Positions 32,190 through 54,427 of a DNA stretch of 64,000 nt are shown piece by piece. A program made the position numbers and the translations under genes. Location of the stretch: NCBI RefSeq assembly GCF_019797845.1, contig NZ_CP081864.1, forward strand, positions 1,984,001 through 2,048,000, written 5' to 3'. Source of the stretch: Symbiopectobacterium purcellii (lineage in GTDB: Bacteria > Pseudomonadota > Gammaproteobacteria > Enterobacterales > Enterobacteriaceae). Positions within the stretch are counted from its first letter, which is position 1. The number at the start of each line of letters is the position of its first letter. Below the pieces are notes generated by a model, which made no database searches, was not told where the DNA came from, and was given only the letters and a program-made list of their open reading frames with translations.

Positions 32190-32513
32190 TGCCAAGGTGG
32201 TACGGTTCAGAAACCCGTTTCTGGCCGTGCCGCATTCTGGCGCGATGTTCTGGCAGTCTCCGCCTTTTGCTGGTGCAGCGTGTAACACGATGCACCACAA
32301 CAAAGCAAAAAACGCGGTGTCAGGACAGTGTAGCCAGCCATAAAAATTCCCTATGCCTTTTTCAGGCTCCAATCGCGGTAATTCAGCTAATCAACCAGGG
32401 GGAATCCGAATTCATGGCACAGATTATGCTTTTTTTTGATGCATGATGCATCAAAAAAATTGTGATGGGTACAGCCCGCATTTTACGTTGACGAACTCTC
32501 CAGGAGCCGCACT
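32190..32513. other. gabD / binding-protein intergenic region
   Basis: These 324 bases have no supported gene. The one striking element is the long palindrome at 32431-32459. A clear terminator for gabD was not found, so partial read-through into the transporter genes is possible. Confidence 0.55.
32431..32459 (+). promoter_or_regulatory. 29-bp perfect palindrome, candidate GntR/FCD operator (site A)
   Basis: Two perfect 14-base arms (seven T, then TGATGCA T-type arm, mirrored) flank one central G. It contains TGATGCATCA at 32444-32453, the same 10-mer found at 35912 and 54417. T-rich on the left and A-rich on the right is the reverse of a terminator, so an operator for the genes from 32514 is more likely. 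Confidence 0.65.
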
Positions 32514-33575
32514 ATGTTGACCAAGAAGTTACCGTCCAAGATGTCCGCAGTGAAAAAAATGGCGCTCGGCGCGCTGGTTACTGCCATGGCTTCACAGGCC
32601 TATGCCGAAACCGTAACCGTTGTCTCGTTTGGCGGCTTGAACAAGGACGCTCAGGACAAAGCTTTCTACAAACCTTTCGCTGCGGCGGGCAAAGGCACGG
32701 TAGAAGCGGGTGAATACAACGGGGAGATGGCCCGTATTCGCGCGATGGTGGAAAACGGTCAGGTTGGCTGGGATGTGGTTGAAGTGGAAGGGCCGGAGCT
32801 GGTACGCGGCTGTAACGAAGGGATGTTTGAGCCGCTGGATTGGAAAAAACTGGGTAACCCTTCTGACTTTGTGCAGGGCGCGGTTTCTGAGTGCGGCGCA
32901 GGGATTTTCCTCTGGTCTACCGTATTGACCTATAACGCGGCCAAACTGCCGCAGGCACCGAAAAGCTGGGCCGATTTCTGGGATGTGAAAACCTTCCCCG
33001 GCAAACGTGCCCTGCGTAAAAGCGCCAAGTTTACGCTGGAGTTCGCGCTGCTGGCGGATGGCGTAAAACGCGAAGATCTCTATAAAGTGCTGGCAACCCC
33101 TGCGGGTGTTGACCGCGCGTTCAAGAAGCTGGACCAAATCAAACCGAATATCCAATGGTGGGAATCCGGCGCGCAGCCGCTGCAATGGCTGGTGTCTGGC
33201 GATGTGGTGATGACCTCCGCCTACAACGGTCGCGTTACTGCGGCACAGAAAGAAGGGCATGACTTCCGCATCGTGTGGAATGACAGTATTTACGATCTGG
33301 ACAGTTGGGCCATTGTTAAAGGCACCAAACACAAAGCGCTGGCAGAACAGTTTATTGCCTTTGCCAACCAGCCGGAAAACCAGAAAGTGTTTGCTGAGAC
33401 CATCCCCTATGGTCCAACGCACGTTAAAACGACCAGCCTGATTTCTCCTGACGTGGTGAGAAACCTGCCGACCGCGCCGGATAACCTGGCACAGGCCTTG
33501 CAAGTAGACACTGAGTTTTGGATTGACCACGGCGAAGAACTGGAACAGCGCTTTAACGCCTGGGCTGCGCAGTAA
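32514..33575 (+). CDS. ABC transporter substrate-binding protein, spermidine/putrescine type
   Basis: The 353-residue periplasmic protein has a signal peptide ending in SQAYA before ETVTVVSFGG. The mature protein is a PotD/YdcS-like type II binding protein (WDVVEVEGPELVRGCNEGMFEPLDW, TYNAAKLPQAPKSWADFWD, VVMTSAYNGRV). This class binds polyamines or related small cationic or amino compounds. The true ligand is unknown. AGGAG lies seven bases before ATG. It heads the operon with two permeases and follows palindrome site A. Confidence 0.9.
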   Translation: MLTKKLPSKMSAVKKMALGALVTAMASQAYAETVTVVSFGGLNKDAQDKAFYKPFAAAGKGTVEAGEYNGEMARIRAMVENGQVGWDVVEVEGPELVRGCNEGMFEPLDWKKLGNPSDFVQGAVSECGAGIFLWSTVLTYNAAKLPQAPKSWADFWDVKTFPGKRALRKSAKFTLEFALLADGVKREDLYKVLATPAGVDRAFKKLDQIKPNIQWWESGAQPLQWLVSGDVVMTSAYNGRVTAAQKEGHDFRIVWNDSIYDLDSWAIVKGTKHKALAEQFIAFANQPENQKVFAETIPYGPTHVKTTSLISPDVVRNLPTAPDNLAQALQVDTEFWIDHGEELEQRFNAWAAQ

Positions 33576-33611
33576 GTTGGTTTTGCCGTATCTGTGATTG
33601 GAGGTGAAAGT

Positions 33612-34883
33612 ATGTCCCAGAATAACCTGGCCGCGGCGCTGCCGCCAGCCAACGAAAGAGAAGGGAGCCCGCTGCTCAAACAGCAGCTTAAAACGGCCGA
33701 AGCGCTGTATAAAAAGCGTTCTTTGTTGTTGATTGCGCCGCTGTTCCTTTTTTTGGTGGTTAGCTTTCTCTTTCCGATATTTTCGATTCTGGGAAAAAGT
33801 ATCTCGAATCCAGAACTGCGGGAAGCCATGCCGATGACCATTGCCGCGTTGCGGCAATGGTCTGGCAACGAATTACCCAATGACGCGGCGTTTAATGCCG
33901 TGGCTGCCGATTTGCGCCAGGCGCGTAGCGCTGGGCAGGTTGCCATGATCACCAAACGCCTCGGCTACGAAGGATCGGATTACCGTACCCTGATTAACCG
34001 CACATTGCGCCAACTGCCTACGCTCGACAGCGGTAACGTGCGTGAACAACTGATACAAACGCAACCAATGTGGGGAGAGCTCTCCACCTGGCGCACGCTG
34101 GATCGCGCCTCGCGTCCTTTCACCAGCTATTACCTGCTGGCAGTGTTTGATCATCGCGTCGATCCGGCATCAGGAAACATTGTTGCCCAACCGCCGGAGC
34201 AATCGCTGTATGTTGATGTGCTGTTGCGCACGCTGCTGATGGCCGGTGTCGTGACGCTGCTGTGCGTTGGCTTCGGCTATCCGCTGGCCTATTGGCTGGC
34301 AAAACAGCCGACAAACCGCGCTAACTTGCTGATTATCCTGGTGTTGCTGCCATTCTGGACCTCGCTGATTGTGCGTACTGCCAGTTGGATTGTGCTGTTG
34401 CAATCGGGCGGACTGATTAACCGTGCCTTGCTAAGTATCGGCATTATCAATGAGCCGCTGGTGATGGTGTTTAACCGCATTGGTGTCTATATCTCGATGA
34501 CGCACATTCTGTTGCCGTTTTTGATCCTGCCGCTGTATGCGGTGATGAAGGGCATTTCTCCCAGCTATATGCGCGCGGCCATTTCGCTGGGTGCGCATCC
34601 GTTTGAAGCGTTCTGGCGTGTTTATGTGCCGCAAACCTACGCCGGGATCACCGCCGGTGCGCTGCTGGTGTTCATGATGGCGATCGGCTACTACATCACA
34701 CCGGCCTTGCTGGGTGGGCCCAGCGATCAGATGCTGAGTTACTTCGTGGCGTTCTTCACCAACACCACCATGAACTGGGGGATGGCGGCAGCGCTGGGTA
34801 CACAACTGCTGATTATCGTAACGCTGCTCTATATTGTTTATATTCGCGTGACCCGCACCGACGCCGAAGCGGCGGCGCGTTAA
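33612..34883 (+). CDS. ABC transporter permease, PotB type with large periplasmic insertion
   Basis: This 423-residue inner-membrane permease is longer than E. coli PotB (about 275). The extra length is a roughly 130-residue loop between the first membrane span (IAPLFLFLVVSFLFPIFSILG) and the second (LLRTLLMAGVVTLLCVGFGYPLAYWL). The EAA loop contacting the ATPase is visible at AAISLGAHPFEAFWRVYVP. The start at 33612 has a GGAGG site; a GTG 18 bases upstream was rejected. It is co-transcribed with the binding protein and the next permease. Confidence 0.9.
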   Translation: MSQNNLAAALPPANEREGSPLLKQQLKTAEALYKKRSLLLIAPLFLFLVVSFLFPIFSILGKSISNPELREAMPMTIAALRQWSGNELPNDAAFNAVAADLRQARSAGQVAMITKRLGYEGSDYRTLINRTLRQLPTLDSGNVREQLIQTQPMWGELSTWRTLDRASRPFTSYYLLAVFDHRVDPASGNIVAQPPEQSLYVDVLLRTLLMAGVVTLLCVGFGYPLAYWLAKQPTNRANLLIILVLLPFWTSLIVRTASWIVLLQSGGLINRALLSIGIINEPLVMVFNRIGVYISMTHILLPFLILPLYAVMKGISPSYMRAAISLGAHPFEAFWRVYVPQTYAGITAGALLVFMMAIGYYITPALLGGPSDQMLSYFVAFFTNTTMNWGMAAALGTQLLIIVTLLYIVYIRVTRTDAEAAAR

Positions 34884-34901
34884 GACGCAAGGAGAACCCT
34901 G

Positions 34902-35720
34902 ATGAGACAACAAGGTGCCGTGGTCCTGCGTTTATGGAAAGGCTTCTTTAATTTTTACGGTGCAGCGATGCTGCTGTTCTTGGTGGTGCCGGTGCTGGTT
35001 ATCGTGCCGCTGTCGTTTAATGCCGGCTCTTTTCTCAGCTATCCGCTGACCGGATTTTCGTTGCGCTGGTATCAGGAATTTTTCAGTTCAAGCGCCTGGT
35101 TAGGCGCGTTGGGCAACAGCCTGATGATTGCCCCGTTATCAACGCTGTTAGCCACGGTGCTTGGTGTGCTGGCCTCCATAGGTCTGGTACGCGGTGAGTT
35201 TCGCGGCAAAGCGTTGGTGATGGCGGTGCTGATCTCCCCGATGATCGCGCCGGTAGTCATTGTGGCGGTCGGGATGTTCTTTTTCTTCGCCAAACTTTCG
35301 CTGCTCAATAGTTATCTCGGCTTGGTGTTGGCCCATGCGATGCTCGGCGTCCCCTTTGTGGTGATCACCGTAACGGCCGTGTTGAAAAATTACGATCATA
35401 ACCTGACCCGTGCAGCCGCCAGCCTGGGCGCGCCACCGCTGTATGCGTTTCGCAAAGTGACGTTGCCGCTTATCGCGCCGGGCGTGTTCTCCGGTGCGCT
35501 GTTTGCCTTCGCCACCTCGTTCGATGAAGTGATCGTCACGCTGTTTCTCGCCAGTCCGCGCCAGCGCACACTGCCGCTGCAAATGTTTGCCGGTATCAGG
35601 GAAAACCTCGATCCCACCATTGCTGCTGCTGCCTCTATGATGGTGGGGGCAGCGCTGGTGCTGCTGATTGTGATGGAAGTGCTGCGCCGTCGTGCGGAGA
35701 AACTCAGAGGTGGTCGCTAG
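34902..35720 (+). CDS. ABC transporter permease, PotC type
   Basis: The 272-residue permease has six hydrophobic spans and the EAA motif AAASLGAPPLYAFRKVTLPLIAPGVFSGALFAFATSFDEV. It pairs with the upstream permease. AAGGAGA precedes the ATG. No ATPase follows it, so the importer must borrow one, most plausibly the divergent PotA-like protein at 26.5 kb. Confidence 0.9.
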   Translation: MRQQGAVVLRLWKGFFNFYGAAMLLFLVVPVLVIVPLSFNAGSFLSYPLTGFSLRWYQEFFSSSAWLGALGNSLMIAPLSTLLATVLGVLASIGLVRGEFRGKALVMAVLISPMIAPVVIVAVGMFFFFAKLSLLNSYLGLVLAHAMLGVPFVVITVTAVLKNYDHNLTRAAASLGAPPLYAFRKVTLPLIAPGVFSGALFAFATSFDEVIVTLFLASPRQRTLPLQMFAGIRENLDPTIAAAASMMVGAALVLLIVMEVLRRRAEKLRGGR

Positions 35721-35788: not shown

Positions 35789-35911
35789 GAAAAATCCGGC
35801 TGCCTAAACGCCGAAAATTTCACACCGCTGCCTGTATACCGTATGCAGAGCTTATCGGTGCAGATTTTGCTGAACAGCGTGCTGTTTCAGTTTTTTTTAA
35901 CGCTAAATTTA

Positions 35912-35921
35912 TGATGCATCA
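35912..35921 (+). promoter_or_regulatory. TGATGCATCA palindrome, candidate GntR/FCD operator (site B)
   Basis: This self-complementary 10-mer lies 20 bases upstream of the SDR gene start. It is identical to the core of sites A and C. Confidence 0.6.
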
Positions 35922-35940
35922 AATATCTAATGAGGTGCCT

Positions 35941-36675
35941 ATGTCCGAGCAAAAGACCTTGTTGTTGACCGGCGCGAGTCGCGGGATCGGTCACGCCACG
36001 GTGAAGCATTTCCATGCGGCTGGATGGCGTATTTTCACTGCCTCACGGCAGAACTGGGTAGAGGATTGTCCGTGGGTGGAAGGGGTGCTAAACCATATCC
36101 ACTTCGATCTGGAAGATATCGATAGCGTGCAGGAGACGCTGCCGCTGATCAAAGAAAAACTCGGCGGCAGGCTGGATGCGTTGGTCGATAACGCCGGTAT
36201 TTCGCCCAAGGGCGTGGATGGCAGTCGCCTTGGCGTGCGCCAGACCGACTACGCCACTTGGCTCAGGGTGTTTAACGTCAACCTGTTTTCCTGCGCATTG
36301 CTGGCCAATGGACTGTTTGATGAACTGCGTGCCAGTCAGGGCAGCATCATCAATATCACCTCCATTGCCGGTGCGCGCGTGCATCCGTTTGCTGGTAGCG
36401 CCTATGCCAGCTCCAAAGCGGCACTCTCAGCGCTGACGCGGGAAATGGCAAACGAGTTTGGCCGCTACGGTATTCGCGTCAATGCGATTGCGCCGGGGGA
36501 AATTGAAACCAGCATCCTGTCGCCGGGTACCGATGAGATCGTAGCTCGTCAGGTCCCGATGCAGCGTTTGGGTAAACCCGAAGAGGTGGCTAGCCTGATC
36601 TATTTCCTGTGCAACAGCGGTGCCTCCTATGTCAATGGGGCGGAAATTCAGGTTAACGGAGGCCAGCATGTGTGA
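35941..36675 (+). CDS. Short-chain dehydrogenase/reductase
   Basis: The 244-residue classical SDR has the cofactor motif TGASRGIG, the structural LVDNAGIS, catalytic Ser in NITSIAG, and YASSK with catalytic Tyr and Lys. The C-terminal block GKPEEVASLIYFLCNSGASYVNGAEIQVNGGQ is typical. It would oxidise or reduce a hydroxyl or carbonyl group; the substrate is not predictable from sequence. GAGG lies before ATG 35941. An upstream in-frame ATG at 35911 sits inside operator site B and was rejected. The last eight bases overlap the kinase gene, so SDR, kinase and aminotransferase are one operon. Confidence 0.9.
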   Translation: MSEQKTLLLTGASRGIGHATVKHFHAAGWRIFTASRQNWVEDCPWVEGVLNHIHFDLEDIDSVQETLPLIKEKLGGRLDALVDNAGISPKGVDGSRLGVRQTDYATWLRVFNVNLFSCALLANGLFDELRASQGSIINITSIAGARVHPFAGSAYASSKAALSALTREMANEFGRYGIRVNAIAPGEIETSILSPGTDEIVARQVPMQRLGKPEEVASLIYFLCNSGASYVNGAEIQVNGGQHV

Positions 36676-37726
36676 CGCGCAGGACACGGGCACGCTAATG
36701 ACGCAGGCGGTACCGGAGGTTTCTTGCCAGCAGGCGCAGGCGCTGATCTGGCAATACTATGGTCTGCAAGGGGATGTCACCCTGCTCACCGGCGAACGGG
36801 ATAAAAATTTTTGCCTGACCGTGCCCTCCGGGCGTCGCTATATGTTGAAAGTGATCAATGCTGCCGAATCTGTCGCCGAAAGCCACTATCAGACTGCGCT
36901 GTTGCTGCATGTCGCTCAGCAAGCGGCGGCGCTGCCGGTACCACGCGTGGTACTGACGCGCTATCAACAGGCGGAACCGGTAGTGGATATTGACGGCAAC
37001 GCGTTGCGCATTCGTCTGGTGAGCTTTCTGGAAGGCACGCCGCTGTATGCGGTAACACCGTCTATCGCGCTGATGGAAAGTTTAGGAAGCACGCTGGCAC
37101 AGTTAGATGTGGCACTGAGCCGCTTTTCTCATCCGGCGGAACAGCGGCAACTGTTGTGGGACATAAGCCGCGCTGAGCAAATTCGTCCTTATCTTGCGTT
37201 TGTACATGACATTGAACAGCAAGCGGCCATCACGCAGATCCTGCAACGCTACGATAGCCATGTGACACCGCAGCTAAAAACGCTGCGTCAACAGACTATC
37301 CATAACGACATGAACCCACACAACGTGCTGGCAGACGTGGGGGACGCAACGCGCGTCAGCGGTATCATCGATTTCGGTGATGCTCTTTATGCACCATTGA
37401 TCAATGACCTGGCGACGGCGTTAGCGTATCAGATACATGACGGGGAGGATCCCTTCGCTTTTATCGTGCCGTTTATCGCGTCTTATCATGCGCATCTGCC
37501 GTTGACCGAGCAGGAGATCGCGCTGTTGCCCGATCTCATCATGACGCGCCTGGCGCTGATCATGACCATCGCACAGTGGCGTGCCGCACGCTATCCGGAG
37601 AATCGTGACTATTTGTTGCGCAATTTGCCGCGCAGTTGGCGCAGCCTGCAACAGATAACCCGTTATTCGCACGACCAGTTCTGCCAGCGGATATGGCAGG
37701 GGATAAAGGAGATAAATCATGACTGA
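36668..37726 (+). CDS. APH-type small-molecule kinase (hydroxylysine kinase-like)
   Basis: The 352-residue protein has the aminoglycoside phosphotransferase/choline kinase fold. The Brenner motif HNDMNPHNVLAD supplies the catalytic Asp and Asn, and IIDFGDA is the metal-binding DFG-like motif. The N-terminal lobe shows DKNFCLTVPSGRRYMLKVINAAE, with Lys for ATP. Because the next gene resembles amino-alcohol-phosphate phospho-lyases, I infer phosphorylation of a hydroxyl group on an amino compound, as hydroxylysine kinase does. This is not a claim of antibiotic resistance. GGAGG lies five bases before ATG 36668. Confidence 0.82.
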   Translation: MCDAQDTGTLMTQAVPEVSCQQAQALIWQYYGLQGDVTLLTGERDKNFCLTVPSGRRYMLKVINAAESVAESHYQTALLLHVAQQAAALPVPRVVLTRYQQAEPVVDIDGNALRIRLVSFLEGTPLYAVTPSIALMESLGSTLAQLDVALSRFSHPAEQRQLLWDISRAEQIRPYLAFVHDIEQQAAITQILQRYDSHVTPQLKTLRQQTIHNDMNPHNVLADVGDATRVSGIIDFGDALYAPLINDLATALAYQIHDGEDPFAFIVPFIASYHAHLPLTEQEIALLPDLIMTRLALIMTIAQWRAARYPENRDYLLRNLPRSWRSLQQITRYSHDQFCQRIWQGIKEINHD

Positions 37727-39008
37727 AGTGACAACGTCACCAGTAAATGCCAGCGCTGAACTCTTGGCGCGTCGCCAGCGCGTATTGGGCCAGGGTTATC
37801 GACTCTTTTATCAGGAGCCGTTGCATCCGGTGCGCGGCGAGGGGGTATGGCTGTTCGATGCGCAGGGCAAGCGCTATCTGGATGTGTACAACAACGTAGC
37901 GTCGGTCGGGCATTGCCATCCGGCGGTAGTGGACGCCATTGCTCGGCAGAGTGCACAGCTTAATACCCATACCCGCTATCTGCATCATGCTATCGTTGAT
38001 TTTGCCGAAGATTTGCTGCGTGAATTCCCGGCTGACCTGGATAACCTGATGCTGACCTGCACCGGCAGTGAGGCTAACGATTTGGCCCTGCGCATTGCGC
38101 GACATGTGACGGGCGGCACCGGGGTTATCGTGACACGTTGGGCTTATCACGGCGTTACCAGTGCGTTGGCAGAACTTTCTCCGTCACTCGGCGACGGCGT
38201 GACACGCGGCAATTATGTAAAACTGATTGATGCGCCAGACAACTATCGTCAGCCCGGTGCATTTTTGGCGTCGGTGCAGGCCGCATTGGCAGAGATGCGT
38301 GCAGAAGGCATCCGTCCTGCGGCGCTGCTGTTCGATACCATTTTTTCCAGTGATGGCGTCTTTTCCCCGTTGGCTGGAGAAGTGGCGCAAGCGGTACAGT
38401 GGGTGCGCGATGCTGGGGGACTGTTTATTGCCGATGAAGTGCAGCCGGGTTTTGGCCGCACCGGTGAAGCCATGTGGGGATTCGCCCGCCATCAGGTGGT
38501 GCCGGATCTGGTCAGCTTAGGCAAGCCGATGGGCAACGGGCATCCGATCGCAGGATTGGTAGGAAAATCGGCGCTGTTTGCCGCATTTGGTCGTGATGTT
38601 AGCTATTTTAATACTTTTGGTGGTAACCCGGTGTCGTGTCAGGCGGCACATGCGGTGTTGCGTGTGATCCGCGAAGAGCAACTGCAACAGAACGCGTTGT
38701 GGGTCGGGCATTGCCTGCGTGAAGGGTTGCAAGCGTTAGCACAGCATCATGCACTGTTGGGCGATGTGCGCGGCAGCGGGCTGTTTGTCGGTGCGGAACT
38801 GGTTAGCGACCGTGAAAACAAAACGCCAGCCAGCGCTGAGGCGGTAGCGGTGGTGAATACCATGCGCCAGCGCGGCGTGTTGATCAGCGCTACGGGGCCA
38901 GCGGGCAATATTCTGAAGATCCGGCCACCGCTGGTGTTCAGGGAAGAGCATGCCGCGCTGTTTCTCGATACGCTGGACGCCGTGCTGACAGAAGTGGCGC
39001 AGCGCTAA
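37719..39008 (+). CDS. Class III aminotransferase-fold protein, phospho-lyase-like
   Basis: This 429-residue PLP enzyme has the fold-type I class III pattern with GSEANDLALRIAR, DEVQPGFGRTG and the PLP lysine in VSLGKPMGNGHPIAG. The segment RYLDVYNNVASVGHCHPAVVDAI, then LNTHTRYLH, resembles the ethanolamine-phosphate and 5-phosphohydroxylysine phospho-lyases more than GABA or ornithine aminotransferases. Those enzymes eliminate phosphate and ammonia to give an aldehyde. Pairing with a kinase supports this reading. A plain omega-aminotransferase remains possible. The start overlaps the kinase stop by eight bases. Confidence 0.85.
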   Translation: MTEVTTSPVNASAELLARRQRVLGQGYRLFYQEPLHPVRGEGVWLFDAQGKRYLDVYNNVASVGHCHPAVVDAIARQSAQLNTHTRYLHHAIVDFAEDLLREFPADLDNLMLTCTGSEANDLALRIARHVTGGTGVIVTRWAYHGVTSALAELSPSLGDGVTRGNYVKLIDAPDNYRQPGAFLASVQAALAEMRAEGIRPAALLFDTIFSSDGVFSPLAGEVAQAVQWVRDAGGLFIADEVQPGFGRTGEAMWGFARHQVVPDLVSLGKPMGNGHPIAGLVGKSALFAAFGRDVSYFNTFGGNPVSCQAAHAVLRVIREEQLQQNALWVGHCLREGLQALAQHHALLGDVRGSGLFVGAELVSDRENKTPASAEAVAVVNTMRQRGVLISATGPAGNILKIRPPLVFREEHAALFLDTLDAVLTEVAQR

Positions 39009-46034: not shown

Positions 46035-46539
46035 TATCACCTTGCAGGAGTCGGAAAACGACCTCATTAATCAGATGGCGGGTATTGATGCAGGCTCAAC
46101 GCGCGATAGGCTACGTCGGCTACGTCCGGACTATGTTTCTGGCGTGGAGGCTTGCCGTTGCAGCGTGTTGACGCCGCACGACGATCAGGGATTACCGGCG
46201 GCGCTGCGTGCGTTGCTCGCCCTGCGTATGGCGCGCACATTGGGTGTGTCAGCACAGGTGGCCTTTTACCAACGGCTCGTCGATAGTTTGCCATCCTCGC
46301 AGACGGATCTGGCGTTAAACGCTGACGGTAAGCAGGGAACGCGCGCTTTTCAGGCGCTGGTTTATCATTGTGACGTTGTCACTAATAATCCCGCCGCGAG
46401 TTCACAACAGGATCTTGAGCATTTACAGCAGGCAGGGTGGACAACGCCGCAAATCATTGCGCTGTCCGAACTGATCGCTTTTATCAATTTTGAATCACGC
46501 CTTGTGGTTGGGCTATCAGCATTAGGTGAAGGACAATGA
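46018..46539 (+). CDS. CMD-domain protein (carboxymuconolactone decarboxylase-like)
   Basis: The product of about 173 residues has an all-helical pattern like the CMD proteins of the Avi_7170-type family, which lack the usual CxxC pair. Family identity rests on recall of the pairing with a following alkylhydroperoxidase-domain protein. Function is unknown; CMD-like proteins often have redox or peroxide-handling roles. ATG at 46018 is chosen and 46006 is an alternative. It overlaps the flavoprotein 3' end, and its stop overlaps the next start (ATGA). Confidence 0.7.
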   Translation: MLRHSNITLQESENDLINQMAGIDAGSTRDRLRRLRPDYVSGVEACRCSVLTPHDDQGLPAALRALLALRMARTLGVSAQVAFYQRLVDSLPSSQTDLALNADGKQGTRAFQALVYHCDVVTNNPAASSQQDLEHLQQAGWTTPQIIALSELIAFINFESRLVVGLSALGEGQ

Positions 46540-47126
46540 AGCGTGAAAAAACCACGATACCTGCGGTAAAGGTCCGTGTGTTGCCTCTGACCTGGCATCC
46601 CTATCTGACCCCGGTGGATCTGAATAACGCTACGCCCGCTCAACGGATCGCGATGCAGGTGACGCCGTCAAGCACTCACGTTTCTCCCTATGTGCGCACT
46701 CTGGCACACGATCCTGACTCCTATGTGGCGCGTACCACGCTGTTTAACGCCATTATGTACAGTGACGGTGGATTAGGGCGCGCAGAACGAGAATTGGGCG
46801 CGCTGGTGGCTTCCGCCGTTAACGGCTGCGCGTATTGTGGTTCGGTTCACGCACGGCGTTATGAAACGCTGTCAGGGCGCAACGATGTGGTCAGTGCGAT
46901 ATACACGCGTGGGTTAGATGCGCCTTTCGATGAAAAGACTCAGGCGCTTGTCGATTTTTGCCGTGCCCTGTCGCAGACACCTGTGGCGCTTGAACCTCAT
47001 CATGTCACTGCTTTGCGCCAACAGGGATTTAACGACGCTGACATTATTGATCTGGTGCATTCCGCAGCGATCTTTGGCTGGGCCAACCGCTTGATGCACA
47101 CCCTTGGTCATTCCCAGCGCCGTTAA
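46536..47126 (+). CDS. Alkylhydroperoxidase (AhpD)-like, peroxidase-related protein
   Basis: The 196-residue product has the AhpD active-site pattern: a glutamate-bearing segment RAERELGALVASAVNG followed by CAYCGSVHARR with the redox CxxC and His. AhpD proteins reduce peroxides or act as thiol adaptors. Downstream of a flavin monooxygenase-like gene it may detoxify leaked peroxide or process an oxidised product; this is inference. AAGGA precedes ATG. Confidence 0.85.
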   Translation: MKREKTTIPAVKVRVLPLTWHPYLTPVDLNNATPAQRIAMQVTPSSTHVSPYVRTLAHDPDSYVARTTLFNAIMYSDGGLGRAERELGALVASAVNGCAYCGSVHARRYETLSGRNDVVSAIYTRGLDAPFDEKTQALVDFCRALSQTPVALEPHHVTALRQQGFNDADIIDLVHSAAIFGWANRLMHTLGHSQRR

Positions 47127-47138
47127 TCCTGCCGCTAT

Positions 47139-47155
47139 GCCGGGACATTCCCGGC
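47139..47155. terminator. Hairpin between convergent operons
   Basis: A perfect 7-bp stem (GCCGGGA / TCCCGGC) with a 3-base loop sits between the convergent stop codons at 47126 and 47159. T tracts are short on both sides. Confidence 0.5.
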
Positions 47156-47158
47156 AGC

Positions 47159-47956
47159 TTATAACGCTTTGCGTAGCCCGATCAGCCGCTCCAACACCAC
47201 CACCACAGCAAGGGATATCAGGATTAAAATCACTGACAACGCCGCTATCTGCGGGTCAGTGGCGTATTCAAGATAGCGGTAAATCTCGGTCGGCAACGTG
47301 GAAGTGCGTGTGGATACCAGAAACAGGGACAGGGTGGCCTCATCGAAGGAGATCAAGAAGGCGATTGCGCCACCCGCCACAATACCCGGACGAATCAGCG
47401 GCAGCGTGATGCGATGAAACACCTGCCAGGGCGATGCGCCGTGGATACGCGCTGCCTCTTCAATACGCACATCGACGGCGAGCAGACTCATGGTGATGGT
47501 TCTGACCGTATAAGGCAGCGTAATGCCCAGGTGCGCTACCGCAATGCCGGTATAGGTATCGAGCAGGCCTAGCGGTGCCAATACCAACATCAGCCCCACG
47601 GCCAATACGATATGCGGTACCAAAAACGGTGCCACAGCCAGAAAAGCGATAACCGACCGACCGCGAAACTGAAAGCGCGTCAGGGCGAAAGCCAGCAGCA
47701 CGCCCACTACAATGGCCCCCGCGCCTACGGAAATACCCAGCGTCAAACTGCGCCCAAACGCGGCAATAAACACCGGATTATTCAGAACCTTGATATAAGA
47801 ACCCAGCGACAGATCGACGGGAGGGAAGGCAAGATACTGGCGTGTGTCGAATGAGATGATAAACACGATGATAATCGGTGCCAGCAGAAAAAGATAAAGC
47901 AGAAAGATCAGGCTGTGCCAGGCGATAGTGCCCGGCTGCCAAGCGCGAGATATCAT
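47159..47956 (-). CDS. ABC transporter permease, PotC type (second importer)
   Basis: The 265-residue permease has six hydrophobic spans and an EAA motif AARIHGASPWQVFHRITLPLIRPGIVAGGAIAFLISFDEATLSLFLV. It is last in the operon flavoprotein 2 - M19 peptidase - binding protein - ATPase - two permeases. The start at 47956 (MISRAWQPG) has GAGAA nearby; a longer frame overlapping the upstream permease was rejected. Confidence 0.9.
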   Translation of the reverse strand: MISRAWQPGTIAWHSLIFLLYLFLLAPIIIVFIISFDTRQYLAFPPVDLSLGSYIKVLNNPVFIAAFGRSLTLGISVGAGAIVVGVLLAFALTRFQFRGRSVIAFLAVAPFLVPHIVLAVGLMLVLAPLGLLDTYTGIAVAHLGITLPYTVRTITMSLLAVDVRIEEAARIHGASPWQVFHRITLPLIRPGIVAGGAIAFLISFDEATLSLFLVSTRTSTLPTEIYRYLEYATDPQIAALSVILILISLAVVVVLERLIGLRKAL

Positions 47957-47963
47957 GATGTTC

Positions 47964-48830
47964 TCACTGTTCCAGCGCCCGCAAGGCGCGTTGGTAAAGC
48001 ACAATAACGCTGCTGAACAATACCAGCAACAGTACGGAAAGCGCTGCTGCCAGCGGCCAATTGAGGGTCACGGTAGCCTCGCTGAAAATTTCGGTACCCA
48101 GCACAAACACCCGTCCACCGCCCATCAGACGCGGTGTGACAAACGCCGAGATGGCCAGCACGAAAACCAGCAGAGCAGCGGTTAAGACCCCCGGCAAACT
48201 GAGCGGCAGCGTGATGCGTAAAAACACGCGCCAACGCGCGGCTACCAGCATCTGCGCCGCCTCTTCCAGTGGCTGACTCAGCCGCCCGAACCCGCTCAGC
48301 ATGGCGAGAATGACGTAGGGCATCAGGATTTCAATTAGCGCAAGGGTAGCGCCGAGCGTATTGTTGCTCAGACGCCAGGGCGTTGTGGTCAGCGATAACG
48401 CCTGCAGCGTCGCATTGATGACCCCTCTGTCCCCCAACAGCACCATCCAGCCGTAGGTACGCACCACGGAGGATGTCAGCAACGGGGCGATGGCTAATGC
48501 GGTCAGCACGCCTTTCCAGCGGCTGGTGCTGCGGTGCAGGAACAGGGCGAGCGGGTAGGCGAGTGCAACGGCAGGCAGACTAACCATCAGCCCCAGCCAT
48601 AGGGTATTGCCGGCCACGCGCCAGTAAAAAGGATCGAACAGCACGGCGGCATAGGCGCTGGTGCTCCAGGGGGCGGATGGGGCGATCATACTGCCGATGG
48701 GGCTGAAGGAGGCGCGAATCAACCATGCCAACGGGGCGGCAAAGGTGATCCCGAGTGTCAGCAGCCCTGGCAGCAACAATGCCAGCAGGAGCAGTCGGGA
48801 ATGCCGTGTCGTTGGGCGCATTACTGTCAT
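47964..48830 (-). CDS. ABC transporter permease, PotB type (second importer)
   Basis: The 288-residue permease has an N-terminal span and five more, with EAA loop AAQMLVAARWRVFLRITLPLSLPGVLTAALLVFVLAISAFVTPRLMGGG. Its ATG overlaps the ATPase stop (ATGA), showing translational coupling. Unlike the PotB-like protein at 33.6 kb it lacks the long periplasmic insertion. Confidence 0.9.
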   Translation of the reverse strand: MTVMRPTTRHSRLLLLALLLPGLLTLGITFAAPLAWLIRASFSPIGSMIAPSAPWSTSAYAAVLFDPFYWRVAGNTLWLGLMVSLPAVALAYPLALFLHRSTSRWKGVLTALAIAPLLTSSVVRTYGWMVLLGDRGVINATLQALSLTTTPWRLSNNTLGATLALIEILMPYVILAMLSGFGRLSQPLEEAAQMLVAARWRVFLRITLPLSLPGVLTAALLVFVLAISAFVTPRLMGGGRVFVLGTEIFSEATVTLNWPLAAALSVLLLVLFSSVIVLYQRALRALEQ

Positions 48831-49900
48831 GGCGTGTGCCTCCCAACCGAGGTGATATCGGCGGGCGCTACCGTCAGCATCAGGCTGTCACCCTGCGCTG
48901 GCGTGCTGCCAGCCTGGGTAGGCAGATCGGCGAGTAAGTAATGTGGGCCGACCTGCACGCCGAGGGTGTGATGCTGTCCGCGATAAACGCGCTGTGTGAC
49001 ACGGCCTGAAAACGCGTTGAGCGGTAACGGCGAGCCAGAGGGCACACAGCGCAGGCGGTGTGGGCGAATCAGCAAGCGCACGCGGGTGCCGGGCGTTAAC
49101 GCATCGGCGAGGTGCAGTTGTCCCAGGCCTTCGATGTGGACCCGATGAGGCTGGAGTACCGTGGCGTCAAAAAAATTACCGTTACCGATAAAACGCGCCA
49201 CGAACTCGGTTTCCGGTTGGTCGAATATGGCATCCGGGGTGCCGATCTGCTCAAGTTTTCCCTGCGACATCACGGCAATGCGATCGGCCATCGACAGCGC
49301 TTCATCCTGATCGTGCGTGACGAACAGCGCGGTGATGCCGGTACGGCGTTGCAGATCGCGAATTTCATCACGCATTTCATCACGCAGTTTGGCATCCAGA
49401 TTTGACAGCGGCTCATCAAACAGCAGGAGTTCTGGCTCAATCACCAACGAACGGGCGATGGCGGCGCGCTGTTGCTGCCCACCGGAGAGTTGGCTGACGC
49501 GGCGATCGCCTAACCCCTCGAGTTTGACCAACGCCAGCGCCTGCTGTACCCGTTTGGCGCGCTCGGCGCGTTTGATGCCACGCATCTCGAGCCCGAACGC
49601 GATGTTTTGCGCCACGCTCAGGTGGGGAAATAGCGCATAGGCTTGAAACACCATGCCCATGTTGCGCTGATGCACGGGAATGGCCGAAATGTCCCGGCCA
49701 TTAAGCTGAATACTGCCTGATGTGGGCGCAATCAAACCCGCGATCATGCGCAGCAGGGTAGTTTTTCCACAGCCCGACGGGCCGAGCAGCGCCAGCATTT
49801 CGCCGCGCGGCACGTGCAGACTGACGTCATCAACGGCGGGGGCCTGCGCCCCCGGATAGGATTTCGCCAATTGGTTGACGGAAAGGTGAACATCGGACAT
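48827..49900 (-). CDS. ABC transporter ATPase, PotA type (second importer)
   Basis: The 357-residue ATPase has Walker A GPSGCGKTT, Q-loop VFQAYALFPHLSV, signature LSGGQQQRAAIARSL, Walker B LLLFDEPLSNLD, switch His FVTHDQDEA and a C-terminal TOBE domain. It powers the importer formed with the flanking permeases and the binding protein at 49952. Confidence 0.93.
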   Translation of the reverse strand: MSDVHLSVNQLAKSYPGAQAPAVDDVSLHVPRGEMLALLGPSGCGKTTLLRMIAGLIAPTSGSIQLNGRDISAIPVHQRNMGMVFQAYALFPHLSVAQNIAFGLEMRGIKRAERAKRVQQALALVKLEGLGDRRVSQLSGGQQQRAAIARSLVIEPELLLFDEPLSNLDAKLRDEMRDEIRDLQRRTGITALFVTHDQDEALSMADRIAVMSQGKLEQIGTPDAIFDQPETEFVARFIGNGNFFDATVLQPHRVHIEGLGQLHLADALTPGTRVRLLIRPHRLRCVPSGSPLPLNAFSGRVTQRVYRGQHHTLGVQVGPHYLLADLPTQAGSTPAQGDSLMLTVAPADITSVGRHTP

Positions 49901-49951
49901 ATGGCGTCTATCTCATGAGCGATAACAGGGGTAATCGTGGCGTGTCAGTCA

Positions 49952-50995
49952 TCAATGCAGCGCGATCACGTCGCGACGAATCCGTTGGATCCACGGCGCG
50001 TAGCGTTCTGCAACCCAAGGCCAGTCGAGCGCCCATTGCGCCTGCTGTGCCTCTTTACTGCCATAAATGCGCGCTGCCGCTGGTGCACTCAAGGTCACTT
50101 GCGTGTTGACGGGCCCATAGAAACTTTGCTCGGCGAAGGTGCGCTGCGCCTCGGCGCTGAGCGCGTAGTCAATAAATTGCTGCGCCGCACTGGCCTGTTT
50201 GGAGCCTTTTACCAGACTAATGGTATTGATCTGACCGATGCTGCCTTCCCGCGGTAATGCGATACCAATTTTTCCATCTTGTTTATCATGCAGATACTGT
50301 GCACGCCCGTTCCAGCAGATAGCCAGATCCACTTCACCACTCTGGACCACCGCATAGCAGTCAGGGGCGGGATCCCAGGTGGCGACATTAGGGGCGATGG
50401 CCTTCAGCACGGTAAAACCCGGTTCAATATCCTGCTTGTAGTCACCGCCTTTTAACCGGGTGAGGATAGGCAGCAGTGTGACGCCACGGGTATCCGCTAA
50501 CGGTGCCGCAATGCGTCCTTTATATTTGGCATCGGTCAGATCGTTCCAACTGGTTGGCGGTTGTTTGACCCGATCGGTGTTATAGAGGATGGCGAGGTTA
50601 TCCTGTGAAAAAGCGACAGAGCGTTGTCCACCGATAACCGCCCAGTCGGGCTGGGCATGCAGATTTTTGACCTCGCCGTTATCCAGTGGCGCAAATAAAT
50701 CCTGGGTATTGGCGCGGATGGCAACGGAAATATCCAGCAGCGCTACGTCCACATGGGGGTCGTTACGCTGCAAGGTCAGTAGCGCCAGCGATTCCGCGGA
50801 GTTCTTGCTTTGCTGGTAATTTATCTTGATATCCGGGTGCTGTGCCTCGAAGGGGGCGATAACCAGTTTCTGGTAGTTGTCAGCAAACACGCCGGAAAAC
50901 CCTACCACGTTGACGGTAGTGGGGGCCGCCTGCGCAAACAACGGCAACAGCGTGAGTGCGAGGATGCTGCGATGCAAACCTGTAGTAGCAGACAT
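49952..50995 (-). CDS. ABC transporter substrate-binding protein, polyamine/thiamine type (second importer)
   Basis: The 347-residue periplasmic protein has a signal peptide (ILALTLLPLFAQAAP) followed by TTVNVVGFSGVFADNYQKLVIAPFE. The pattern WDPAPDCYAVVQSGEVDLAICWNGRAQYLHD and SIGQINTISLVKGSKQ is that of PotD/FbpA-like type II binding proteins. The ligand is unknown; the adjacent peptidase and flavoprotein suggest an amino compound that is hydrolysed and oxidised. AGGAG lies before ATG. Confidence 0.88.
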   Translation of the reverse strand: MSATTGLHRSILALTLLPLFAQAAPTTVNVVGFSGVFADNYQKLVIAPFEAQHPDIKINYQQSKNSAESLALLTLQRNDPHVDVALLDISVAIRANTQDLFAPLDNGEVKNLHAQPDWAVIGGQRSVAFSQDNLAILYNTDRVKQPPTSWNDLTDAKYKGRIAAPLADTRGVTLLPILTRLKGGDYKQDIEPGFTVLKAIAPNVATWDPAPDCYAVVQSGEVDLAICWNGRAQYLHDKQDGKIGIALPREGSIGQINTISLVKGSKQASAAQQFIDYALSAEAQRTFAEQSFYGPVNTQVTLSAPAAARIYGSKEAQQAQWALDWPWVAERYAPWIQRIRRDVIALH

Positions 50996-51036
50996 GGTGA
51001 ATCTCCTGGTGATTATGATTGTTATTGTGGTGGTTA

Positions 51037-52071
51037 TTATTGTGGTGGTAGCAAGGAGGGCGTCTTGCGCGCAGCGGGTTGCCAGGCGGTGCCCAGAACC
51101 CGAAGCCAGTTCTCTCCCAGCAGTTTGCGCACGCGCGCTTCACTCCATCCGCGCGCCAGCATCCGGGCAGTGAGGTTGGGGAACTCCCGAATGCGCGCAA
51201 TGCCCTGAGGTTTATTGATCGTTGCTGACCCGAAGGGGGTCAATGTGCGTGCCGTTCCCTTGTCGCGATTGGCCCACAGCAACCAGGGCCCCGGACGCGG
51301 GCGATCCTGAGAAAAGTCAGTGCCGATACCCACGTGGTCTTCCCCGACCAGATCGATGACATAGCTCATGGCATCCAGATAGTCTTCGATCGTGGCATCA
51401 TTGCCTGCTGCCAGACCGGGTGAGAACAGGCTGATACCAATAATGCCGCCCCCTTGAGCACAGCCGACCAGCAACTCATCGGGTTTGTTGCGTTTGACGT
51501 CTTTGAGCGCGCGGGGTAACACATGAGAAATACACACCGGCGCTCGTGATGCCGCGATAACATCGGCGCTGGTGCGATCGCCAACGTGGCTAAGGTCACA
51601 CAGCACCCCTACACGGTTCATCTCTGCCAGCACCTCGTAACCAAACCCGGTTAAGCCGCTGTCCCGGGTTTCCAGATAGCCCGCACCCGAGTAGTTTTGG
51701 GTGTTATAGGTTAACTGCATCACTCCGACGCCGAGGTCTTTGAATATCTCGACGTATTCCAGGTTGTCTTCCAACGGGGAGGTATTTTGCCAACCGAGGA
51801 TAATCCCGGTCCGTTGCTCTGCTTTGGCGGCGTAGATGTCTGTCAGCGTGCGCACGGGCCTAATCAGGTCATCGTTTTCACGCCAAAACCGTTTCCACTG
51901 CGAGACATAATCGATGCCTTCCCGAAAGTTTTCCCACAGCAGGGAGGCGCAGTTAACGGCAGTAATGCCCCCTTCGCGCATCTCTTCAAATATGGCGCGA
52001 CTCCAGTCGCAGGTTTGCAGGCCATCAATCACGATGGATTGTTGGTGCAGCGTCTCTTGCTCGATGGACAT
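51037..52071 (-). CDS. Variant M19 (renal dipeptidase-like) amidohydrolase
   Basis: The 344-residue product belongs to peptidase family M19. The second-half metal histidines are present in LCDLSHVG and CISHVLPRAL. The family's first metal motif HxD (usually VIDGHND) is replaced by VIDGLQTCDW, so the first His is missing. A related subfamily with DGLI/DGLQ at this point is known near choline and dimethylglycine catabolic genes, as I recall from Pseudomonas. It may therefore be a different amidohydrolase and not a dipeptidase. GGGAG precedes ATG 52071; an upstream extension was rejected. Confidence 0.82.
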   Translation of the reverse strand: MSIEQETLHQQSIVIDGLQTCDWSRAIFEEMREGGITAVNCASLLWENFREGIDYVSQWKRFWRENDDLIRPVRTLTDIYAAKAEQRTGIILGWQNTSPLEDNLEYVEIFKDLGVGVMQLTYNTQNYSGAGYLETRDSGLTGFGYEVLAEMNRVGVLCDLSHVGDRTSADVIAASRAPVCISHVLPRALKDVKRNKPDELLVGCAQGGGIIGISLFSPGLAAGNDATIEDYLDAMSYVIDLVGEDHVGIGTDFSQDRPRPGPWLLWANRDKGTARTLTPFGSATINKPQGIARIREFPNLTARMLARGWSEARVRKLLGENWLRVLGTAWQPAARKTPSLLPPQ

Positions 52072-52088
52072 AATGACTCCCTGGTTGA

Positions 52089-53540
52089 CTATGGTGCGAG
52101 TGGCAGCGCGCTGAAAGGGGCGGTTTCCTGCCACTCATCGCCGAGCAGTTCCGGCGTGTCGTAAGCCTGAAACCGGGCAAGCAGTTCGGCGCGGTCTTCG
52201 CGCAACAGCGAACTGACAATGCCGCGGGTTAAGCGTTGGGCACCTTCGGCGATTGAGGGGATACCGCTGGTTAATTTGCCGTGACTCAGCACTGCCGGGA
52301 ACGCGAAACAGTAGAGGGTCGATATCGTTGCTGGTTCGGCATCCACGCCCGGCTTGGGCAACAATTCAAAGTGTTTGCCCAGATAAGGCGCAGACGCTAG
52401 CCCGTCATGTTGCTGGTCCGCGGCGGGGTGATAGCGATCGCGCCACTGGCAGATAGTGTTGGCGAAAGAGGCAAATTCAGGGCGCGCCTGAAAATCCACA
52501 CGAAAACCAGTCGCAAAAATAATAAAGTCAACGTGGAACTGGCCGTGTGGCGTTTGCAGCGCAATCGCCTCATCCTGCTCGCGCAGTGAAGTCAGTGGAC
52601 TGGCACGGTGGAAGGCGACGTTGGCATGCTTTGTTACGCGCTGCACGCTGTGACGCGGTGGCGGGATTTGGGCGTGCTCTCCCGCCAGCATCAACTGCCA
52701 TTTGGTTTCATCGGGCAGATGGACATACCCCAGCGTAAGCCCCTGATGGCCGATACCGGTAAATTTATCAATGCGTGGCAAGGTGGTGCGACGATAGAAA
52801 ATGTCGACCCGTTCGGCACCGTTTTCCAGGGCAAAGGCGGCATTGTCCATTGCCGACGCGCCGGAACCAACCACGGCCACGCGCTTTCCGGCAACCTGTG
52901 TGGGAGGGATGATATCTGCGCTGTGGGCGATGTAACGCGCCGGTATCTGCCGAGCGACAGGGGGCAATGTGGGCCCACCTAGCCCATCAATACCGGTAGC
53001 CAGAACGACGCGCCGGGCACGCAGTTGCTGCTTTCCTTGTGCCGTCGCGATATCCACCTCAACCCAGCCCTGTTGGCCCGGTTCGACCCGCGTCACCGGC
53101 GCGTGGTTACGCACAGGCAGGTTCAACACCGTGCGATACCAGGTCAGGTAAGCCATCCACAGTGCGCGCGGAATGCGCGCCATGGCCTGATAGGCCGATG
53201 TGCCATATTGGGCTTCATACCAAGCGCGGAAGGTGAGAGAGGGAATGCCGAGCGCCGGTCCTGCGGCTTCTTTACGCGTGCGCAGATCGTCCATGCGCGC
53301 GGAGGTGATCCACGGGCCTTCCTGTCCGGCGGGGGCTTTATCCAGGCACAGAATGCGGGTTACGCCTGCCAGCGTGAGTGCGGCGGCGGCGGTCAAACCG
53401 CACAGCCCGGCACCGACGATGATCACATCGTAATCGGGTGCGCTCTCCTTCAACCAGGGGCGTGCAGGTAATTCCAACAGTGCCAGATCGGCACTCAGGC
53501 GTTGTGCCAATTGAGAGAGAGGGGGTTCTGGGTGTGTCAT
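52089..53540 (-). CDS. FAD/NAD(P)-dependent oxidoreductase, flavin monooxygenase-like (paralogue 2)
   Basis: The 483-residue product has FAD motif VIIVGAGLCGLTAAAAL, NADPH motif VAVVGSGASAMDNAAFAL and FATGFRVD. It shares long blocks with the gene at 44589 (AGQEGPW, GPALGxPxLTFRAWYxAQ, DTPELLGDEW), so the two are paralogues in opposite operons. It heads the operon with the M19 protein and the ABC importer. The same 13-base motif lies upstream of both paralogues. Confidence 0.85.
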   Translation of the reverse strand: MTHPEPPLSQLAQRLSADLALLELPARPWLKESAPDYDVIIVGAGLCGLTAAAALTLAGVTRILCLDKAPAGQEGPWITSARMDDLRTRKEAAGPALGIPSLTFRAWYEAQYGTSAYQAMARIPRALWMAYLTWYRTVLNLPVRNHAPVTRVEPGQQGWVEVDIATAQGKQQLRARRVVLATGIDGLGGPTLPPVARQIPARYIAHSADIIPPTQVAGKRVAVVGSGASAMDNAAFALENGAERVDIFYRRTTLPRIDKFTGIGHQGLTLGYVHLPDETKWQLMLAGEHAQIPPPRHSVQRVTKHANVAFHRASPLTSLREQDEAIALQTPHGQFHVDFIIFATGFRVDFQARPEFASFANTICQWRDRYHPAADQQHDGLASAPYLGKHFELLPKPGVDAEPATISTLYCFAFPAVLSHGKLTSGIPSIAEGAQRLTRGIVSSLLREDRAELLARFQAYDTPELLGDEWQETAPFSALPLAP

Positions 53541-53596
53541 GATCGTGTGATACCTGGTCTAAAGTCGTACCGCTGCAGAGCAGGGCAGTACGTGGC

Positions 53597-53609
53597 GAAT
53601 AATTATTAA
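53597..53609 (-). promoter_or_regulatory. GAATAATTATTAA motif before flavoprotein gene 2
   Basis: This 13-mer, 57 bases upstream of the start at 53540, is identical to 44488-44500. It is embedded in a longer near-palindrome with GCGAAT / ATTCGC arms. Confidence 0.45.
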
Positions 53610-53675
53610 TTCGCATTATTACAGGCTGATCATGTGATATTTAAATGCTTTAATCGCATTTGCTTATGAGGGGAA

Positions 53676-54359
53676 CTACGCTTGTGGCTGATTCTCCTCG
53701 GCGTGCTCGATGAACGCCAACATGGTGTCGCTGCCATCGAGGATATCCTGCTGAATGGCATGCTGTGCGGCGGTTCCATCCTGATGGCGCAGGGCTGCCA
53801 CTACCTCTTGATGGTGCTCAATTGCCATCTGATGGGAGAAATGGGCATAGGCCTGGGCAATCAGTGGGCCGGTGCGCATCCACAAACTGCCGATAAATTG
53901 GCTGAGCAGCGGCATATCAGCCATCTGTGCCAGCATGAGGTGAAACTCGCTGTTAAGACGCAACGCCGCGCTTAAATCGTTATCATCAATCGCCTGAAGA
54001 TTTTGCGTGATATTGGCGTCCAATTCGGCAAGCTTACTCGGTGTCATCAGCGCAGCAGCGTGCAGCGCGCCGCTGCCTTCCAGCGACACGCGCAAGGTAC
54101 GAATCTCAATAAACTGTGCACAGGTGAGCAGCGGGACGCGGATATCGCGCGGCGTTTTCAGGATCAGCGCCTGTTCTTTGGCGAGTTGCAGGATGGCATC
54201 ACGCACCGGGGTGACGCTGGTGCCAACCTGGGCGGCCAACTCGCGAATGCGCAGCCGATCGTCCGGTTTTAGCCGCCCCATAATCAGCGCTTCGCGCAGC
54301 ATGGTGTACACACTGGAACCCAGATAACTGTGGTTGATTTGCCCAATTGGATAATTCAC
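53676..54359 (-). CDS. GntR-family regulator with FCD domain
   Basis: The 227-residue protein has a winged helix (LREALIMGRLKPDDRLRIRELAAQVGTSVTPVRDAILQLAKE) and an FCD ligand domain with spaced Asp/His residues (LNSEFHLMLA, IEHHQEVVAAL). Such proteins repress catabolic operons until a carboxylate or amino-acid ligand binds. I chose GTG 54359 because GGGGTG lies upstream and because the -10 box (54406-54411) overlaps the earlier ATG at 54407. The palindrome ATGATGCATCAT sits beside that -10 box, which points to autorepression. It lies upstream of, and on the same strand as, the flavoprotein 2 operon. Confidence 0.88.
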   Translation of the reverse strand: MNYPIGQINHSYLGSSVYTMLREALIMGRLKPDDRLRIRELAAQVGTSVTPVRDAILQLAKEQALILKTPRDIRVPLLTCAQFIEIRTLRVSLEGSGALHAAALMTPSKLAELDANITQNLQAIDDNDLSAALRLNSEFHLMLAQMADMPLLSQFIGSLWMRTGPLIAQAYAHFSHQMAIEHHQEVVAALRHQDGTAAQHAIQQDILDGSDTMLAFIEHAEENQPQA

Positions 54360-54405
54360 GCATTCACCCCGAGAAACAGCGCAGTCCTGTCGCTTCAATT
54401 GGCGC

Positions 54406-54427
54406 ATTATACAATATGATGCATCAT
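54406..54427 (-). promoter_or_regulatory. GntR gene promoter with ATGATGCATCAT operator (site C)
   Basis: The minus strand has a perfect TATAAT (54406-54411) directly preceded by the 12-base perfect palindrome at 54416-54427. The palindrome therefore lies in the -10/-35 spacer, a repressor position. Its core equals sites A and B. Confidence 0.7.

Follow-up and report, generated by a model that had tools for sequence, protein, structure and literature searches.

The stretch of DNA analysed here, called the window throughout, comprises 64,000 nucleotides of Symbiopectobacterium purcellii (positions 1,984,001-2,048,000 of NZ_CP081864.1; all coordinates below are window-based). It carries genes for an ATP-binding cassette (ABC) importer, an operon for a short-chain dehydrogenase (SDR), a kinase (KIN) and a phospho-lyase (PLY) and, at a distance, the gene for a regulator of the GntR/FCD type; the ten-base palindrome TGATGCATCA occurs three times (32444-32453, 35912-35921 and 54417-54426), each time immediately 5' of an operon. 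From comparison of sequences, we argue that TGATGCATCA is very probably the operator of this regulator, and that the importer and SDR-kinase-phospho-lyase operons are the regulator's targets. The genes and predicted sites of this proposed regulon are the following.

32437..32453, no strand assigned: predicted double overlapping operator of the importer operon, within the palindrome 32431-32459
32514..33575, plus strand: SBP1, substrate-binding protein of the importer; nearest solved structures are sensor or binding proteins for 4-aminobutyrate (GABA; 9d57, 6dgv, 4i1d, 4eq7), and the pocket letters are FNFWYRDY
33612..34883, plus strand: importer permease 1a, named from a gene order kept in relatives
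34902..35720, plus strand: importer permease 1b, named from Pfam BPD_transp_1 and gene order
35912..35921, no strand assigned: predicted operator of the SDR-kinase-phospho-lyase operon, from the word match and the comparison of SDR loci
35941..36675, plus strand: SDR (nearest solved structure 4x54, 2e-94)
36668..37726, plus strand: KIN, a small-molecule kinase of the APH fold (Pfam APH, 7.9e-29; start codon uncertain)
37719..39008, plus strand: PLY, a pyridoxal-phosphate-dependent phospho-lyase of the class III aminotransferase fold (5g4i, 1e-114; human ETNPPL 6tor, 2e-101)
53676..54359, minus strand: GntR/FCD regulator (Pfam GntR and FCD)
54417..54426, no strand assigned: predicted operator in the regulator's own promoter, 5 bases upstream of a TATAAT (54411-54406, minus strand)

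A sequence-only reading of this DNA had reported these three copies of the word, all in promoters, one of them beside the TATAAT of the GntR gene and another inside a 29-bp perfect palindrome before the importer genes, and each of these observations is confirmed. The three copies are the only ones in the window, and 100 dinucleotide shuffles of the window contain a mean of 0.16 and a maximum of 1. The 29-bp palindrome (32431-32459) is perfect around a single central base, and inside it a second copy of the word with one mismatch, at 32437, overlaps the copy at 32444; the same overlapping copy is found in L036, L037 and L172, which together with the window represent the genus's four regulon-carrying genomes. 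At the SDR operon, 19 bases separate the end of the operator from the start codon at 35941, and an alternative in-frame ATG at 35911 overlaps the operator. Two other roles for the palindromes were considered and rejected: a structured RNA, for which no Rfam match reached the gathering score between 25000 and 58000, and an intrinsic terminator at 32431-32459, where the terminator scan lists none.

The 4.94-Mb single-contig genome holds 10 copies of the word and none of its reversed control. Of the seven copies outside the regulon, six fall within open frames some 300-640 codons long and one (L002) overlaps the stop codon of a long frame, and the whole-genome scan that the sequence-only reading had proposed thus yields no further promoter copy, the other seven being in genes or at a gene end. 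Coding status was judged from open frames together with a codon score, and two caveats attach to it: the score is weak (6) for the copy L010, in a 298-codon frame, and the SDR and GntR operators themselves fall in upstream in-frame extensions of those frames (scores 13 and 12, respectively). We count the latter two as promoter sites because the conserved protein starts are downstream of them.

The regulator combines an N-terminal GntR winged helix (PF00392, 6.4e-13) with a C-terminal FCD domain (PF07729, 1.5e-19), both above cut-off. A scan of genome contigs returned 77 loci with relatives of it, mapped to at most 10 kb on each side. In 63 of these 77 relatives a perfect TGATGCATCA is found no more than 1 kb upstream, the next best of the 1,024 ten-base palindromes reaching 7/77; after similar upstream regions are removed, the corresponding counts are 31/40 and 3/40. 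The site lies within 300 bp of the regulator in 30 of the 77, and 830-922 bp upstream of it in 33 further relatives, in all of which (33/33) the intervening gene is the SDR. These 33 SDR-GntR loci, labelled Pseudomonas in 32 cases and Plasticicumulans in one, have KIN and PLY in the opposite direction, and SBP1 likewise in 28/33. Of the 92 copies of the word in the 77 loci, 55 have A and T as flanking bases. Within the GntR domain, each of the 19 residues of the segment TSVTPVRDAILQLAKEQAL is identical in 97% or more of the sequences in a 67-member alignment that includes the window (67 of 78, eleven having been left out); the distant L108 and L111 do not keep this segment. Because the word accompanies one and the same regulator gene in bacteria that are distant from each other, it is very probably the regulator's docking site, and the conservation that the sequence-only reading had asked for is borne out.

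Co-occurrence of site and regulator leads in the same direction. Both the SDR and the regulator served as queries against the same 392 family genomes (E 1e-60 for the regulator), and an SDR site was counted when it was perfect and at most 320 bases upstream of the conserved TG[AG]SRG motif; G337 was left out of the count (internal stop in the SDR, motif not located) and G880 was counted twice. With the window included, the site is found at 18 of 21 SDR loci in regulator-carrying genomes and at 0 of 6 in genomes without the regulator (Fisher value 2.8e-4, which ignores relatedness). One of the remaining three loci (G1001) has the site with one mismatch, and the other two are both in G880. By genus, the eight with the regulator each have at least one perfect site, and the five without it have none. 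An earlier, smaller search agrees, its three site-less genomes giving no regulator match even at 1e-15. We also examined 22 genomes picked from the 77 (L038-L051, L057, L061, L066-L068, L081, L084 and L104), of which 13 have a close kinase and the SDR in the locus, with a perfect site at 13/13 SDRs; four of the 13 were already in the 392-genome count (G343, G862, G946 and G987) and nine are new. The rest comprise two with no kinase at 1e-30 and seven whose kinase homologues, at 30-39% identity, have no SDR alongside, one of these seven (L249, Winslowiella) having the site in its locus. A class-wide SDR search at 1e-85 found matches in just 2 of 369 genomes, the window's own among them. Site, conservation, co-occurrence, gene families and the sigma-54 element described below emerge from comparison of sequences, and support the earlier view of a single regulon of import and kinase/phospho-lyase catabolism under the protein at 53676-54359.

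Two further observations concern individual loci. In Brenneria, L237 (position 2123) and L238 (position 1880) contain an extra perfect TGATGCATCA in the kinase-SDR locus, beyond the copy upstream of the SDR. In L125 and L224 (G400 and G930, related genomes) the regulator gene has an internal TAA and the GntR and SDR operators are still perfect.

Self-repression, which the sequence-only reading also anticipated, would be common but not general: of 23 family GntR genes, window included, 14 have a perfect site within 300 bases, five have one with a single mismatch, and four have neither. Its description of two distant operons under one regulator holds as regards the regulon, whereas the distance reflects a lineage-specific block, the regulator adjoining or nearly adjoining the operon in several relatives. 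The regulator is beside or near the lyase-kinase genes in L037, in Rahnella (L053, L054, L076 and L106), Rouxiella (L052) and Nitrincola (L091 and L107), and in L105, and in L036 octDH alone separates operon and regulator. The block that follows the regulator in both the window and L035 consists of FMO2, an M19 peptidase, a second ABC importer, cmd genes, FMO1 and LysR, with a Tct transporter in the window only. In G130 the regulator is at 567 kb, the importer site at 633 kb and the SDR site at 630 kb, a regulator-operon gap of about 62 kb, and all sites are perfect. Since G130 and the near and far arrangements all bear the sites, these follow the genes and not their neighbourhood.

Within the block, window positions 44589-53540 hold two similar oxidoreductases dependent on flavin adenine dinucleotide (FMO1 and FMO2), the M19 dipeptidase and the second ABC importer, all between the operon and the regulator. 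Two of the loci just mentioned may carry wrong species labels: L037, labelled Serratia marcescens, because its regulator is 91% identical to the window's and its genome is classed in the window's genus, and L105, labelled Martelella alba, because its PLY, SDR and importer are 67-81% identical to the window's genes.

Upstream of the importer operon lie further sites and genes that bear on its control and on the fate of its substrate.

26516..27610, minus strand: ABC ATPase, probably the ATPase of the SBP1 importer (Pfam ABC_tran and TOBE_2)
29459..30724, plus strand: gabT, 4-aminobutyrate transaminase (PRK06777, 819.8 bits against a cut-off of 725)
30738..32189, plus strand: gabD, succinate-semialdehyde dehydrogenase family (PRK11241/SSADH over its first part)
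32261..32307, plus strand: NtrC-like site pair, weak, with 8 and 9 of 12 bases matching
32415..32430, plus strand: putative sigma-54-type promoter TGGCACAGATTATGCT, with 10 of 12 consensus bases and GG-N10-GC kept

Sigma-54 promoters have a GG-N10-GC core in a TGGCAC/TTGC context. TGGCACAGATTATGCT begins 29 bases upstream of the importer operator, and 10 of the 11 importer promoters compared (the window and ten loci, from five lineages) have an element with 10-11 of 12 matches located 27-46 bases ahead of the operator, the promoter in L036 having lost it; the background expectation is 0.003 per 60 bases on one strand. The window contains two other words in which 10 or 11 of the 12 positions match, and one of these, at 33487, falls within SBP1. 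Sigma-54 elements were rejected at the SDR promoter (at most 8/12 across 12 SDR promoters, position not conserved) and in the SDR/SBP region of eight Pseudomonas-type loci (at most 9/12, scattered). NtrC sites follow the consensus TGCACC-N5-GGTGCA; the best NtrC-like match has 9 of 12 bases in the window and 11 of 12 in L052 and L105, at least 9/12 being expected 0.10 times per 150 bases by chance. This arrangement suggests that nitrogen limitation probably activates the importer as well, through sigma-54 and possibly with NtrC.

In five loci (L057, L066, L068, L081 and L104) a 62% identical homologue of the ABC ATPase lies ahead of SBP1 and the permeases, behind the operator; permease 1a has no Pfam match at 1e-10. 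gabD contains an in-frame TAG (31893-31895), giving two open frames in the same frame, 30738-31895 and 31908-32189. gabT and/or gabD adjoin the regulon in Symbiopectobacterium, Rahnella, Rouxiella, L105 and four Pseudomonas loci. Among the solved relatives of PLY, phospho-lyases come first and a 4-aminobutyrate aminotransferase follows far behind (2e-51), so that PLY is a predicted phospho-lyase rather than a transaminase. Against the fused family PRK06148, KIN corresponds to positions 4-331 and PLY to positions 583-1013.

The GABA site of the sensor iGABASnFR2 is given, in a passage of PMC12999171, as W9, T13, F100, Y102 (mutated from F), W202, R205, D228 and Y264. By alignment the equivalents in SBP1 are F39, N43, F132, W134, Y237, R240, D263 and Y299, so that four of the eight GABA contacts of Pf622 are identical (the equivalents of F100, R205, D228 and Y264) and SBP1 does not share the full set. 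These eight pocket letters are invariant in 42/42 proteins, window included, in a comparison limited to homologues with at least 58% identity over 300 residues, and they differ in the window's second binding protein. According to passages of PMC6829864 and PMC11113362, PA0222 and PA4985 of P. aeruginosa, which are of the same Pfam class as SBP1, bind GABA; a literature search for the residues of Atu4243 found nothing.

Several observations tell against the proposed regulon or limit its reach. Among the 77 regulator relatives, 14 lack a perfect site within 1 kb. Two of these (L036 and L105) have the site with one mismatch, L084 has a perfect site at -1673, before a kinase homologue, and L108-L111 are distant (26-41% identity); L067, L094, L095 and L100-L103 are site-less without explanation, and five of them (L067, L094, L095, L101 and L103) keep TSVTPVRDAILQLAKEQAL. 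G880 contains two regulator copies and two SDR loci that lack a perfect site, and G309, G343 and G463, three of the four genomes with neither form of the site at the GntR gene, carry it at the SDR. The word itself is somewhat over-represented, six relatives holding 8-16 copies against 0-3 of the reversed control; of their 63 copies in total, several besides the regulon's are outside coding-like frames. G001 holds 8 copies (control 0), at least two of them (L152 and L157) outside coding-like frames, and at the thresholds applied it has no match to the regulator or the SDR, so part of the word's general frequency is unrelated to the regulon. Some promoter-like copies in Pectobacterium-like genomes precede unrelated genes. 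At the promoters themselves, none of the three starts has a complete sigma-70 promoter in a consensus scan, and the GntR operator is overlapped by a terminator-like stem (54435-54418), which we take to be a by-product of the palindrome. Finally, in L057, L066, L081 and L104 the site-bearing SDR, importer and gabD are accompanied by a class III transaminase; the mapped locus holds no lyase, and the kinase homologues in these genomes are all distant, so the kinase route is not a constant core; and the part played by the SDR in the pathway is unexplained.

Some of the loci named above show features of separate interest. L094, L095 and L097-L103 share an identical 400-base stretch that starts in the regulator gene, the labels being those of Janthinobacterium and of several Pseudomonas species, and a single 4055-base contig, from two species, makes up both L095 and L100. 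Together these identities suggest recent transfer of a mobile segment, and among these loci the operator is absent in L094, L095 and L100-L103. The Pectobacterium-like G130 and G202 have promoter-like copies in common outside the regulon (L140/L148 and L134/L142), some in the interval that separates an epimerase-like gene from rph and others next to an aminotransferase-like gene, the names being assigned by eye. In L057 (Pseudomonas), EtfB and EtfA genes follow directly after the importer genes, behind the operator (6724-8409).

Could the operators belong to another regulator of the same genomes? One candidate is a MocR-type protein encoded at 27815-29317; in the window, as in L052 and L105, a MocR-type gene and gabT are divergently oriented. 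A MocR homologue is, however, present in just 2 of the 77 mapped loci, and the site tracks the FCD gene, at its promoter or its operon, across Enterobacterales, Pseudomonas and Nitrincola, which makes this assignment highly improbable. Still less credible is coincidence of chance or sequence composition. The ten copies present are no great excess over the roughly 4.7 that a random 10-mer would have in 4.94 Mb, and relatives with or without the regulator are similar; but the word is kept at the same genes in diverged intergenic DNA and is absent together with the regulator, and the shuffles, the ranking of palindromes in the 77 relatives and the SDR co-occurrence rule chance out for practical purposes. 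We therefore retain the GntR/FCD protein as the very probable cognate regulator, and regard the regulon as backed about as strongly as sequence comparison can achieve.

Binding, repression, ligand, substrate and order of reactions we infer as follows. The GntR/FCD protein would repress its own promoter, the importer operon (32514-35720) and the SDR-kinase-phospho-lyase operon (35941-39008), and a ligand from the pathway would release it from the operators. Repression is favoured over activation because of operator position: the operators lie just upstream of the GntR -10 element, at the expected start of the sigma-54 importer transcript and 19 bases before the SDR, and therefore suit a repressor that blocks polymerase. 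At the importer promoter, nitrogen control (sigma-54, possibly NtrC) would be layered over this repression. The importer might then take up a GABA-like amino acid with a hydroxyl group next to the amino group, the kinase would phosphorylate that hydroxyl and the lyase would eliminate phosphate and ammonia to leave an aldehyde; from 4-amino-3-hydroxybutyrate this aldehyde would be succinate semialdehyde, the substrate of gabD.

The sequence-only reading had suggested amino-alcohol or amino-acid ligands, and the substrate may be a hydroxylated amino acid resembling GABA, as opposed to a simple amino alcohol. As to the substrate itself, we tentatively put forward hydroxylated GABA (4-amino-3-hydroxybutyrate), used through a dedicated system whose GABA-type importer has a reshaped pocket, because it fits the GABA-type SBP1, the kinase, the phospho-lyase and gabD together; doubt about it outweighs our confidence. 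Some Pseudomonas retain importer, SDR and operator but have, in place of kinase and lyase, a class III transaminase, accompanied in L057 by EtfAB. We know of no gene set for a hydroxy-GABA utilisation route, and if the proposal is true it defines a new nitrogen-scavenging one. Rather unlikely, in our estimation, is the same regulon acting on an amino alcohol (ethanolamine or 1-amino-2-propanol), with the SDR working on aminoacetone or aminopropanol and the kinase and lyase yielding acetaldehyde or propionaldehyde. PLY is nearest to phosphoethanolamine phospho-lyases, and the SDR-kinase operon with its site is found in Pectobacterium and Brenneria, in 12 of 14 such genomes searched; amino alcohol kinase and phospho-lyase activity was reportedly described from Erwinia in the 1970s, and if this substrate were correct the operon would supply candidate genes for that decades-old activity. 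SBP1, however, keeps the GABA-site Arg and Asp, which would be odd for a ligand without a carboxylate, and gabT and/or gabD are neighbours in several lineages. We give a similarly low probability to another hydroxylated amine, such as 5-hydroxylysine or 2-hydroxyputrescine. It would agree with the polyamine/GABA class of SBP1 and with a known kinase/phospho-lyase pair acting on hydroxylysine, as indicated by the title of a reference in PMC8154272; hydroxylysine, however, would leave gabD unaccounted for, and hydroxyputrescine, judged from the GABA-site residues, would offer the conserved Arg no carboxylate to bind.

Literature searches gave little that bears on these readings. No work on hydroxy-GABA catabolism with Pseudomonas was found; nothing on hydroxyputrescine concerned such a system by title; and among the matches listed for randomly barcoded transposon sequencing (RB-TnSeq) with phospho-lyase or transaminase, none was on such a system by title. 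Among the matches listed for the 10-mer, none was about this regulator by title, and the only match for the 10-mer together with 'regulon' was unrelated by title.

If the assignment is right, an uncharacterised FCD regulator, present from Enterobacterales to Pseudomonas and Nitrincola, gains an operator and a target set, and the word would label the control points of a single system by which bacteria associated with plants and insects take up and degrade a nutrient. It would also provide a handle on the substrate of an SDR-kinase-phospho-lyase system that symbionts and soil pseudomonads have in common with plant pathogens.

Systems of this kind are known; what is new to us is the operator, the target set and the layered sigma-54 control, and within a title-level listing no literature on them was found. 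A short palindromic operator, a local catabolic regulon and self-control are typical of the FCD-type GntR group. The window's regulator resembles FCD-subfamily regulators in its GntR winged helix and FCD domains, its nearest solved structure by sequence being E. coli McbR/YncC (4p9f, 2e-23), and differs from McbR/YncC in its target genes and in scoring 115.5 bits against PRK11414, which we take to be the McbR/YncC model, under the curated cut-off of 225 and thus outside that family. SBP1 is like Pf622 (9d57/6dgv) and Atu4243 (4eq7) in family and in the anchoring Arg, Asp, Tyr and one Phe, and differs from them at W9F, T13N, F102W and W202Y. PLY, lastly, shares with the phosphoethanolamine and 5-phosphohydroxylysine phospho-lyases of Arthrobacter (5g4i) and human (ETNPPL, 6tor) its fold, a near full-length match and an APH-fold kinase partner, and differs from them in the company it keeps, an SDR, a GABA-type importer and gabTD, its own substrate being putative.

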